Positions 3,895 to 15,361 of a stretch of 64,000 nt of DNA are shown here, piece by piece. The notes beneath the pieces are model-generated. The model ran no database searches. It saw only the letters and a list, made by a program, of their open reading frames with translations, and was not told the origin of the DNA. A program made the translations under genes and the position numbers. Each line of letters begins with the position of its first letter. The stretch's first letter is position 1. This DNA is from an uncultured Alphaproteobacteria bacterium (lineage in GTDB: Bacteria > Pseudomonadota > Alphaproteobacteria > UBA6615). The stretch lies in the NCBI GenBank assembly GCA_943787745.1, contig CALSNJ010000001.1:310001-374000 (forward strand). The letters are read 5' to 3'.

Positions 3895-5817
3895 TTAGGC
3901 TTCGGGCCCCGCGCCGAAAACATCCTCGAGAGATTTCACCTGATGGCGGATATTGCCGTCACGTTGTGAGAGTTTGACCCGGTCAAAATACTCAAGAACC
4001 TCGACGGCGAGATTTCGCCCGATACCGGCCGACTTGCGAAAATCTGAAACGCCGACAGTGCCGTCTGTTTCGATCATCTTGACGAAGACTTTGGCATGGG
4101 CGCGCAGGGCGACGGGTGTGAAGAAACGGTTCCCTGCGATTTGAACCGCCATCCCCATGCGGACGGCCTGGCGCATGGTTTTCATGACCGCGCCGACCGT
4201 TAAACCGGTCTCGGCAGCGAGATCATGCACAACGGGCGGGGCTTCGGGTGTTTCTTCCAGCATTGGCAGCAACAGCGCCCAGTGCTTGGCGTCGTCGCCG
4301 GTCAGGCCCGGCTGATGATTGGGCCGGTGTAGCAACATGCCGTCGCTGGCCACAGTGCAGTCGGATACCGAGGCTGTGACAAGCGCGTCGAAAAGTGGCT
4401 CGGGCACAAACCGGCCAAGGCTGCGACGAAGCTGCGAGGCTGCCGGGCCAAGGCGATCGGGATTGTTTGTGTGAAATGCGTCGAGCGCTTTGAGAAACTC
4501 TGCGCGGCGGGCTTCCCATGCGGCAGGCGACAGCGCCAGCCGGTCCGCATTGTCTCCGGCAATGATCGCCCCCGCATCTGCCAACAAAGCAGCGGCTTCT
4601 TTGTCGTTCAGGTTGCGGGTGGCGAGGAACGCATTCAGGGGGAAACCGGTGTCCGACAGGGCCAGCGTTTTGGTGAGTGCGGATGTATGGTCCGGCGTAT
4701 CAAGAGCGTTCAGCACGGCGAGCCGGTCGGCCCGCGCGCGGCCACGGCGTGGTGGGAAAAGGTCAATCACATGACCGCCGCCCAGAGTGACTTGCGCTGA
4801 CTGATCGCGGATTACAAATCGGTCATGGGCGCAGGCCCCTACCGCTTCGTCGAGGACCAGTTGCGCGAGCGCGGATTGACCAGGTTCAATATTTTCGGCG
4901 CCGAGAACAGCAACCCGACCTGGGACGTTCTTGGCGCCAAGATGCACATGCACAGGGGTCCAGTGCCGCAGCGGACGGCGCGCATCAGCAACAACCCGCA
5001 AGCGCACATCAAGTTTCTTGTAGAGTTGCAGGCTTGGGTCGGCCACCAGCCAGTCGCCGCGGGCGATATCGTCTTTATCGATGCCCGCGAGATTGATGGC
5101 AAGTCGATCGCCGGCGCGCCCGGTCTGGCTGTCGGCGTTGTTCGCGTGGATGCCGCGGACGCGGGCCTGGGTGTCAAAACCGGCGATCCAAAGTCGGTCT
5201 TCACGTGCGACCTGCCCGGAGAAGGCGGTGCCGGTTACGACAAGTCCGGCACCAGCGACCGTGAAGACGCGATCAACACCGAGACGGAAATGTCCACCTT
5301 CGGCCTTGTTGTGAACCTCTTCGGAAAGCGCCGTGATCTTGGCAGATAGTTCATCGATACCCGTATTGGTGATGGCGGAGACCGGAAAAATCGGAGCGTC
5401 GGCCAATGAGCTGTCGGCGAGCAATTCAGAGATTTCGTTCTGAACTTCCTGCACGCGCTCTGCGGGCACCCGGTCGATCTTCGTGAGCGCGACGAGCCCG
5501 CGTGAAACACCCAGAATATCCAGGATGGCGAGATGCTCGCGCGTCTGGGGCATGGGGCCGTCATCGGCGGCGACCACGAGCAAAGCACAATCAATTCCCG
5601 TGACGCCGGCCAGCATGTTGTGGACCAGACGTTCATGGCCAGGCACATCGATGAAGCCGAGCCGGGCACCATTGGCGAGATCGGTATAGGCAAAGCCGAG
5701 GTCAAGCGTCATGCCACGCTTTTTCTCTTCCGGCAGGCGGTCAGCATCCGTTCCGGTCAGCGCCTTCACCAGAAGGGTCTTGCCGTGATCAATATGTCCT
5801 GCGGTGGCGATAATCAT
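3895..5817 (-). CDS. selB: Selenocysteine-specific elongation factor SelB
   Basis: A 640-residue SelB, the usual length. The G domain begins with AGHIDHGKT (residues 6-14), followed by DVPGHE and TKID; domains II and III follow, and the C-terminal third is the winged-helix region that binds the SECIS hairpin. In the known pathway SelB-GTP delivers selenocysteyl-tRNA to UGA codons beside a SECIS element. The start overlaps the selA stop by 4 bases (ATGA), so the two are translationally coupled. A candidate target gene with in-frame UGA lies at 14205. No selC or selD is seen in the window. Confidence 0.97.
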
Positions 5818-7247
5818 CGACTGGCCAGTATTTTCAGTTGTGCGCGGAAGCCGTCCATATCATCCAGGCAGCGCAGGTCGAGCCACAATGCATCATCCTG
5901 CACGCGGCCAATGATCGGCAGCGGCAGTCCGCGAAGGTCTGCGGCAAGCCGTTTGAGGGCTGCGCCGCGGCCGCGCGATGCGGTGGGCATGATGGTGATG
6001 GCTGCGCTGTCGAGGGTTTCCACCGGCAGTGCTCCCGAGCCGATCTGGCCCGAACATTCGGCGATCCCGACGTCGAAGCCGTCTCCCAGTGCGGTTTTGA
6101 CGTCATCCAGAACGGCCTCGGCCTGGGAGCGAATGTCTGCGGCTTTACGCGCCAGGCGACCCAATGTCGGCAACCGTTCGGTCAGCCGGTCGGGATCTCG
6201 GTACAACTGCAACGTGGCGGCGAGCGCTGCGAGGGTCGCCTTGTCGCATCGCAATGCGCGTTTGAGCGGGTTCTTTTTGAGTTTCGCGATCAAGTCTTTG
6301 CGGCCGACAATCAACCCGGCTTGTGGGCCGCCGAGAAGCTTGTCGCCGGAGAAGGTGATGATATCTGCACCCGCCGCGATCGTTTCGCGCGGCGTGGGTT
6401 CGTGGGGCAGGCCCCATGTCTCAAGGTCAACCAGTGCGCCTGCGCCCAGGTCTACCGCGAAGGGTACATCTCCGGCATGGGCGATACCGGCAAGCACGTC
6501 TTCTGCAACGCTCGCGGTGAAACCCTGCACCATATAGTTCGAGGTGTGGACCTTCATGATCAAGCCGGTGCGCGGATTGAGAACTTCCTCGAAATCCTTT
6601 GCATGGGTCCGGTTGGTGGTGCCGACTTCGACAAGCTTTGCGCCCGCGCGTGACATGATGTCAGGGATGCGAAACGCCCCGCCGATCTCCACAAGCTCAC
6701 CGCGTGAGACTGGGACTTCCTTGCGCAGGGCCAGTGCGTTGAGCAGCAACAGGACAGCGCCGGCATTGTTGTTCACCACCGTGGCGGCTTCCGCGCCGGT
6801 CAGCTCGCAAAGCAACTCTTCGACATGTACGTCCCGATCTCCACGTTTTCCCGTCGCCAGATCGAACTCGAGATTGCTGGCGCCCCGCGCGGCATCAGCC
6901 ATGGCTGTGATCGCTTCTTCAGCGAGGGGTGCGCGCCCGAGATTGGTGTGGAGCACCGTGCCGGTCAGGTTGAACACGCGTTTGAGAGACGGAGCGGCCA
7001 TCCGTTCAAGCCGGGTTGCTGCGCTTTGGGCAATGGCGCCTTCGCGCAGATCGGTCTCCTTGCCCTCTGTAAGTGCGGCCCGCGCAATGCCGAGCAGGTT
7101 GCGCAGCACGGTTGTGGTCGCCTCACGGCCATGGGATTCCACAAGCGTTACGACCTCGGGGGCCTGCAAAAGGCGATCGAGTGACGGGATGGATGCGAAA
7201 TCAGGTGTGGTGTTTGCCATGGGCGGGGATTGTTGAGCGGCAGGCAT
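5814..7247 (-). CDS. selA: L-seryl-tRNA(Sec) selenium transferase SelA
   Basis: A 477-residue PLP enzyme that converts seryl-tRNA(Sec) to selenocysteyl-tRNA(Sec) with selenophosphate. The PLP lysine is K303 in [13 protein letters not shown]. The N-terminal domain contains [16 protein letters not shown], typical of SelA. Length and motifs are complete, so the gene looks functional. It is cotranscribed with selB (4-base overlap). The start at 7247 is nearly back to back with the divergent hydrolase gene; an internal ATG at 7220 is an alternative. Confidence 0.97.
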
Positions 7248-13836: not shown

Positions 13837-14166
13837 ATGTCGCAGGATAATTTTGTCGTATTTGATGACAGCAATTTCGATGCACAGGTCCTCTCGCGTG
13901 ATGACCTGACCGTTGTGGATTTTTGGTCGACCACCTGCGTGCCCTGCAAACAGTTGAAAAAGGTTCTTGGACAAGTCGCCGAAGACATGCCCGAGAACGT
14001 CATGATCGGCACTGTCAACGGCGATGAAAATCAGGATCTTCTGGTGCGCTATGGCGTGCGCGGTTTTCCGACGCTCCTGTTTATCAAGGGCGGGGAAGTG
14101 GTGGAAACACGCACCGGCGTCGACCGCAAACAGGTGCTTAAGAAAGTGATCGAAGAACACGCCTGA
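13837..14166 (+). CDS. Thioredoxin-family protein
   Basis: A 109-residue single thioredoxin domain. The redox pair is C34-V-P-C37 in FWSTTCVPCKQL, instead of the common CGPC, and the cis-proline is in RGFPTLLFIKGG. It has no signal peptide, so it is cytoplasmic. The ATG at 13837 follows a GGGAGAAA site; the frame to 13765 is longer but has no ribosome site. It is first in an operon with an AhpD-like selenoprotein candidate 38 bases downstream, and so is a likely electron donor to the C-x-x-U centre. Confidence 0.93.
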   Translation: MSQDNFVVFDDSNFDAQVLSRDDLTVVDFWSTTCVPCKQLKKVLGQVAEDMPENVMIGTVNGDENQDLLVRYGVRGFPTLLFIKGGEVVETRTGVDRKQVLKKVIEEHA

Positions 14167-14204
14167 TTCGGCCTACAATCGATCTGCACAAGAAGGAAAC
14201 AAGC

Positions 14205-14825
14205 ATGGCCAATATCACTCTGCTCGATATCGAAGAGCTGAAGAAGACCAAGCTCAAACCCTATGTTGAGAAATCGCTTGAATTGCGGGCGCCCGATCCT
14301 GGTTTTCATGCCGTCATGGGTCACAACATCGACATTGCCGAGAAATTTTATCTGGCTTGGGTGGGGGCGTTCAACGAGGGCGCGCTCAGCCATCGGCTGA
14401 AAGAGGTGATCCGGGTGATGCTCTCCCGGATGGCCCATTGCAGCTATTGAGGCAATGTTCGGTCTGCTTCGGCGAAGCAGCAAGGACTTGACGAACAGGC
14501 ACTCGACGACGGGATTTACAATCATGCCGCCAGCGACGTCTTTACCGATGAGGAAAAGGCGATCATGCGGTACGTGGAAACAATCGCGACCGATCCGGAT
14601 TCCTTCGATGATGCGGCGTGGGCAGATTTGCGTGCCCATCTCTCGGAAGAAGAGATCGTGGAACTGGGAATGTTCCTGTTTATGAATCTCGGCTTCCACA
14701 CCTTCTTTGGAACCCTGAAATTCTATCCGATGTTTGCGCCCGATGGGCGTCTGGTCAGTCAGGAAGAATCTGAACGCCTCTATGGGGATCGCCCGGAATC
14801 CCTGCAAAGCGCGGCGGCTGAATAA
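14205..14825 (+). CDS. AhpD-like carboxymuconolactone-decarboxylase-family selenoprotein (UGA read as selenocysteine)
   Basis: A 206-residue protein if TGA at 14448-14450 is read as selenocysteine (residue 82). The frame stays open on both sides: 81 codons before and 124 after, ending at TAA 14825. The site reads H-C79-S-Y-U82-G-N-V-R, which places U at the second cysteine of the AhpD C-x-x-C redox pair. A hairpin begins 13 bases after the TGA (14464-14480). selA and selB lie 7 kb upstream. The next gene, a paralogue, aligns across the TGA codon without a gap. AhpD-like proteins are peroxidase-cycle reductases, so a thiol/selenol peroxidase or disulphide reductase role is likely. Ordinary gene calling would give an 81-residue fragment and a separate 86-residue ORF. 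A simple nonsense mutation is less likely given selAB and the hairpin. Confidence 0.88.
14448..14450 (+). other. In-frame UGA, proposed selenocysteine codon
   Basis: TGA in frame with the AhpD-like gene at the position of the resolving or attacking cysteine in C-x-x-C. The following codons GGC AAT GTT continue a conserved helix shared with the neighbouring paralogue. Confidence 0.87.
14456..14497 (+). promoter_or_regulatory. Bacterial SECIS-like element
   Basis: A perfect 7-base-pair stem CTGCTTC/GAAGCAG (14464-14470 with 14474-14480) closes a three-base loop GGC. The loop begins 20 bases after the UGA, inside the range reported for bacterial SECIS elements (about 16-37), and has a G in its first positions as SelB binding requires. 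A second helix TGTTCG/CGAACA (14456-14461 with 14492-14497) could extend it. It lies inside the coding region, as bacterial SECIS elements do. Confidence 0.8.
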
Positions 14826-15361
14826 TGTCGCGTATGCAGCCGCTTGATCTCTCGGAGATCAAAGACCCCGAGATCCATGAGCTGATCACCGAGTGCGAGG
14901 AGTTTGGCGTGCCGGATGCGATGTTCATCCGCATATTTGCCCGCCAACCCGATCAGATGAAAAGCATGCTTCGGGCGATGCTGTCCTCCCATCGTGACGG
15001 GAGCGTCGATCACAAGCTCAAGGAAATCATTCGTATCCAACTCGCGCGGTTTGCCGAGGACCCCTATTTTGCAGCACTTCGCTCGAAAAAGGCCATTGCC
15101 GAAGGTCTCACCGAAGATGTGATTGAGGCGGGGTGCGAGGACTACGAGGATTCGGACCTGTTCTCAGATCGGGAGAAGGTTGCCTTGCGCTTTGCCGAGC
15201 AGATGTTCCTCGACTCTACCAAGGTCGACAAGATTTTTTATGATGAGATGCACGTGCATTATTCCGATCCGGAGATCATGGAGATCGGCGCGTTTATCGC
15301 GCTGTTCCACGGTATCCACATGGTGATGCGCACTTTCGACGCCCGTCCCGCGGCGGCTTAG
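14825..15361 (+). CDS. Carboxymuconolactone-decarboxylase-family paralogue lacking the redox pair
   Basis: A 178-residue alpha-helical protein of the same family as the preceding selenoprotein; SHRLKEVIRVMLSRMA upstream matches DHKLKEIIRIQLARFA here. At the active site A-H-C-S-Y-U is replaced by A-E-D-P-Y-F, so both redox residues are lost. The start overlaps the previous stop by one base (TAATG), so the pair is coupled and may form a hetero-oligomer, since AhpD proteins are oligomeric. It may be a structural or regulatory partner; that is inference. Confidence 0.85.
   Translation: MSRMQPLDLSEIKDPEIHELITECEEFGVPDAMFIRIFARQPDQMKSMLRAMLSSHRDGSVDHKLKEIIRIQLARFAEDPYFAALRSKKAIAEGLTEDVIEAGCEDYEDSDLFSDREKVALRFAEQMFLDSTKVDKIFYDEMHVHYSDPEIMEIGAFIALFHGIHMVMRTFDARPAAA

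Follow-up and report, generated by a model that had tools for sequence, protein, structure and literature searches.

A conserved in-frame stem-loop downstream of a UGA codon as a predicted bacterial SECIS element in an AhpD-like selenoprotein gene of an uncultured alphaproteobacterium

Main finding

A short stem-loop that lies inside an AhpD/CMD-like selenoprotein gene, in the coding sequence directly after an in-frame UGA codon, is very probably a bacterial SECIS element (bSECIS), at which SelB would bind so that selenocysteine (Sec) is inserted at the UGA. The element was recognized in a 64,000-nucleotide stretch of genomic DNA (hereafter the window) from an uncultured alphaproteobacterium, and the features discussed are listed in Table 1. 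The preliminary description had proposed a SECIS hairpin downstream of the UGA, and this proposal was borne out by conservation in 28 of 28 aligned homologues, by the presence of the Sec machinery in the genome and by agreement with the published bSECIS rules. As judged from sequence comparison, it is the conservation across homologues, and not the hairpin alone, that appears decisive for the SECIS reading.

Table 1. Features of the window and their coordinates.
Feature	Position	Strand	Remarks
selB, Sec-specific elongation factor with C-terminal winged-helix domains	3895-5817	-	TIGR00475, 458.8 bits (cut-off 242)
selA, Sec synthase	5814-7247	-	TIGR00474, 582 bits (cut-off 268)
Thioredoxin gene, just upstream of the selenoprotein gene	13837-14166	+	PF00085, E 4.3e-24
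AhpD/CMD-like selenoprotein gene	14205-14825	+	206 aa; Sec at residue 82; motif C79-S-Y-U82
UGA codon, predicted to be read as selenocysteine	14448-14450	+	TGA shared by all homologues with ≥56% identity
SECIS upper stem-loop (predicted)	14464-14480	+	7-bp stem 14464-14470/14474-14480; apical loop GGC 14471-14473
Probable lower helix	14457-14460 with 14484-14487	+	GUUC/GGAC; encloses 3+3 internal-loop bases
Selenoprotein paralogue, D-P-Y-F in place of CxxU	14825-15361	+	28% identical to the selenoprotein; no UGA

An in-frame UGA lies at the redox motif of an AhpD-like gene

From the ATG at 14205 to the TAA at 14825 the gene forms a single frame that is interrupted only once, by a TGA, and the standard list of open reading frames splits it at this codon into pieces of 81 and 86 aa. 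With U read as C, the product matched the Pfam CMD family (PF02627; E 2.4e-7, 31.1 bits against a gathering score of 23), and the redox motif of this CMD/AhpD domain has the CxxU form, CSYU. In phmmer alignments with solved structures of AhpD-like proteins, 2gmy among them, U82 falls on the second Cys of the CxxC motif; the CxxC of AhpD is thus replaced by CSYU in this product. The selenoprotein scored under the cut-off of every AhpD-type NCBIfam model, namely 49.5 bits against 81.8 for TIGR01926, 14.3 against 175 for NF041238, 14.4 against 110 for NF041047 and 39.1 against 310 for NF053654, and it is related to the peroxidase-related family TIGR01926 without being filed as its member. Because it lies below all of these cut-offs, it is a subfamily that lacks an NCBIfam model of its own rather than a new kind of protein.

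The hairpin follows the bSECIS rules and by itself is weak evidence

The hairpin letters were found as the preliminary description gave them: a perfect CTGCTTC/GAAGCAG stem with a GGC loop follows the UGA, the loop starts 20 nt past it (spacer 14451-14470), and the hairpin codons TCT GCT TCG GCG AAG CAG encode S-A-S-A-K-Q. The bSECISearch consensus describes a loop of 3-9 nt, an upper stem of 4-16 bp, a G in loop position 1 or 2, a distance of 16-37 nt from the UGA to the apical loop and a minimum free energy (MFE) of -7.5 kcal/mol or lower (PMC13188914). The 3-nt loop, the 7-bp stem and the 20-nt spacing all lie within these ranges, the loop starts with GG, which is invariant in the aligned homologues, and the MFE is -8.6 kcal/mol for 14451-14485 and -13.1 kcal/mol for 14448-14490. 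The element therefore resembles the consensus in being in-frame, right after the UGA, with a 3-nt loop starting with GG and a 7-bp stem, but differs from it in a primary sequence that is specific to the subfamily (GCUUCGGCGAAGC). Across the genome the core GCTTCGGCGAAGC occurs at a single site, in the selenoprotein gene only, and an Rfam search of 14200-14900 gave no match to a SECIS family and returned chance-level matches only.

How often such a hairpin arises by chance was assessed in two ways. In 20,000 trials that kept the protein fixed and shuffled its synonymous codons according to local usage, 0.16% gave a Watson-Crick stem of 7 bp or longer in bSECIS position. Of the 2333 TGA trinucleotides of the window, 29 (1.2%) are likewise followed by such a stem. 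Given its base composition, the sequence has an ordinary folding energy (z -0.4 to -1.1). Since 1.2% of the TGAs in the window have such a stem, the hairpin by itself is only moderately unusual and is weak evidence. This frequency and the unexceptional folding energy would also suit a different explanation, in which the TGA is a true stop, a pseudogene lesion or a sequencing error, with a hairpin that is there by coincidence or has to do with transcription; a transcription-related hairpin is, however, spoken against by the lack of a T-run 3′ of the stem, and conservation bears on the remainder of this explanation as described below.

The UGA, the stem-loop and its silent sites are conserved

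Searching relatives and GTDB genomes yielded homologues of 56-98% protein identity that align full-length across the TGA; they come from uncultured Alphaproteobacteria, from the cultured Rhodoplanes tepidamans (DSM 9987, locus L066) and from Burkholderiales/Betaproteobacteria metagenome-assembled genomes (MAGs). Every one of these homologues, from more than 20 independently assembled genomes, has TGA at the Sec position. The stem-loop was then compared in an ungapped alignment of 28 UGA homologues from Alpha- and Betaproteobacteria, down to ~56% protein identity. Homologues that keep the UGA and lack a conserved hairpin had been named beforehand as the observation that would count against a SECIS; in this alignment all 28 sequences keep both the TGA and the hairpin, 98.9% of the stem cells are paired, and the GGC loop and the five inner stem pairs are invariant. 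The sole freely varying stem pair was seen as U-G, C-G and U-A but not once as C-A. With so little variation in the stem, strict two-sided compensatory changes are absent among the aligned homologues. C-A is found at the stem base in two homologues, and an A-C mismatch inside the stem of one divergent homologue (G012, L040) indicates that perfect pairing is not obligatory.

Synonymous conservation was evaluated over 173 codon columns: the rate at which sequences sharing an amino acid also share its codon was compared with the rate that codon usage predicts. The five top-ranking codons of the 173 were A88, S89, A90, K91 and Q/R92, which are the stem-loop codons; GCT, TCG, GCG and AAG were identical in 27 of 27 sequences, where codon usage predicts 20-50% identity, and the best five- and six-codon windows were also placed at the stem-loop (excess 0.63 and 0.58, respectively, against a median of ~0.07). 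That synonymous conservation peaks at the stem-loop codons argues that the RNA has been selected beyond the protein, and this constraint appears to be the strongest evidence for selection on the RNA itself. A stop codon, pseudogene or sequencing error would hardly be found as the same TGA in so many separately assembled genomes, with frame and protein conserved on both of its sides and with invariant silent sites in the stem; this explanation is extremely improbable and seems, in practice, to be refuted by conservation.

Reciprocally, a bSECIS is expected to be kept with UGA and to be absent or relaxed with Cys, and the stem-loop is missing from L047 and L049, the closest homologues with Cys (codon TGC; ~32-33% identical). 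A survey of 385 genomes of the class gave no Cys orthologue of the CSYU subfamily. Furthermore, a covariance model of the hairpin (R1) scored above chance only at the selenoprotein gene in each relative, and it revealed no other SECIS elements in the relatives.

A lower helix is probable and an outer helix is not conserved

The preliminary description had further suggested that a six-base outer helix (14456-14461 with 14492-14497) may extend the hairpin, and a longer two-helix structure including it would then be the functional element. Its arms, TGTTCG and CGAACA, are complementary as letters, and in the window's own sequence all six pairs form as part of the MFE fold of 14448-14500. Among the homologues, however, only 64.2% of the cells are paired, the six pairs are complete in 2 of 26 and 14457 pairs with 14496 in 2 of 27, so that the outer helix was rejected as not conserved and the longer structure is very unlikely to be the functional element. 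A shorter lower helix (Table 1) is paired in 90.7% of the cells and complete in 17 of 26 homologues, and its changes are one-sided only. This helix is probably real and weaker than the upper stem, and the comparison is only suggestive because no double-sided change was seen.

The genome encodes the machinery for decoding UGA as selenocysteine

Besides selA and selB in the window, selC and selD were also found in the genome. The SelB protein carries the Pfam domains SelB-wing_2 and SelB-wing_3, and the winged-helix domains of SelB are the part that reads SECIS RNA. The tRNA-Sec (71.2 bits, anticodon TCA) lies ~6 kb left of the window, directly upstream of a gene for an NADH-dehydrogenase-like/SelD fusion (L009 7495-9903, minus strand); the SelD part of this fusion keeps its Cys, and its best full-length NCBIfam match, TIGR04369 (oxidoreductase/SelD-related fusion), is below cut-off. 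Among 24 genomes, SelB was present in 11 of 11 with the UGA gene and in 3 of 13 without it (Fisher p 1.5e-4, uncorrected for kinship), and the co-occurrence within the family alone gave p 0.057.

With these components, SelA, SelB, SelD and tRNA-Sec would give rise to a SelB-Sec-tRNA(Sec) complex. This complex would attach to the stem-loop with its GGC cap and bring Sec to the UGA at 14448, so that in the CSYU redox motif Sec would occupy the position that the second Cys has in the CxxC of AhpD. The product would probably be a hydroperoxide reductase reduced by a thioredoxin-type protein, or a related thiol/selenol oxidoreductase. In other systems a stem-loop placed 3′ of a stop codon can favour readthrough, and the UGA might accordingly be read as Trp or Cys, or by generic readthrough, with the hairpin merely slowing the ribosome. 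Yet a redox Cys stands opposite the UGA in the alignment, the genome has a full Sec system with part of it encoded in the window, the hairpin fits the bSECIS model, and other genes of the window end normally at TGA, as does the thioredoxin gene at 14166; decoding in any of these other ways is therefore exceedingly unlikely.

A second UGA selenoprotein gene, SelW-like (Rdx, PF10262) with the motif FCKIU, was observed at G000:C1:264318-264518 (minus strand, locus L098). Its hairpin, CGCGUG/CGUGCG, is unlike that of the AhpD-like gene in sequence, so that a common SelB recognition motif cannot be claimed beyond the loop G. Formate dehydrogenase was considered as a further Sec gene and found no support, as the best locus on contig C5 reads RLCH, with Cys at the Sec position. 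The FdhA-like gene there (G000:C5:263665-265719, minus strand, locus L087) appears broken into different frames, perhaps by assembly frameshifts.

Relation to known selenoproteins and SECIS elements

Knowledge of AhpD-like selenoproteins with CxxU goes back to 2005, and the hairpin is a well-known type of element in a little-described gene family. The Sargasso Sea survey reported AhpD-like selenoproteins with CxxU (27 sequences) and CMD-domain proteins (PMC1088965), the GOS survey counted 299 sequences of AhpD-like 1/COG2128 and 70 of AhpD-like 2/pfam02627, among the most abundant families (PMC2398784), and TIGR01926 is included among the AhpD-like selenoproteins with CxxU (PMC13188914). The present protein is like them in belonging to the CMD/AhpD family by profile, in its CxxU motif and in its occurrence mainly in marine proteobacterial metagenomes, but unlike them it falls below all the NCBIfam AhpD-type cut-offs, the comparison with AhpD-like 1 and 2 being by description only. 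The element shares with the SECIS elements of E. coli fdhF and fdnG an in-frame hairpin read by SelB, here predictedly so, whereas its sequence and loop differ and the FdhA-like gene inspected here has Cys. According to a 2006 survey, the selenoproteins of Alpha- and Betaproteobacteria consist of formate dehydrogenase alone (PMC1794560); the two UGA genes found here are AhpD-like and SelW-like. Standard gene callers break the gene at the UGA, and correct annotation restores a Sec enzyme in uncultured marine alphaproteobacteria, Rhodoplanes tepidamans and Burkholderiales. The strict conservation of the stem-loop makes it a clean candidate target of SelB.

The selenoprotein gene is paired with a thioredoxin gene and a paralogue

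In most of the homologous loci with enough flank, including those of Rhodoplanes and two Burkholderiales MAGs, a related thioredoxin gene lies directly upstream of the UGA gene, and this thioredoxin is a plausible reductant partner of the selenoprotein. Directly downstream, nearly all such loci carry a CxxU-less paralogue, which always reads D-x-Y-F or D-x-Y-S; the paralogue in the window has no matching hairpin at the corresponding site. The order of thioredoxin gene, UGA AhpD-like gene and paralogue seen at 13837-15361 of the window is conserved across Alpha- and Betaproteobacteria. This conserved pairing with both neighbours points to a functional unit, whose products may form a complex. 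As a tentative model, which we consider possible and rather less than probable, the unit would be a hetero-oligomeric, thioredoxin-fed selenoperoxidase, with the CxxU protein as the active half and the D-x-Y-F partner as an obligate structural or substrate-binding subunit; strict dependence on Sec would be possible in this enzyme, because no Cys orthologue appeared among the genomes searched.

In one lineage the genes stand in a tandem of selenoprotein, paralogue and selenoprotein (L064 3001-4902, also G006:C5:88883-90787). TGA and hairpin are kept in both selenoprotein copies. The near-identity of the two copies in their 3′ parts suggests a recent duplication or gene conversion.
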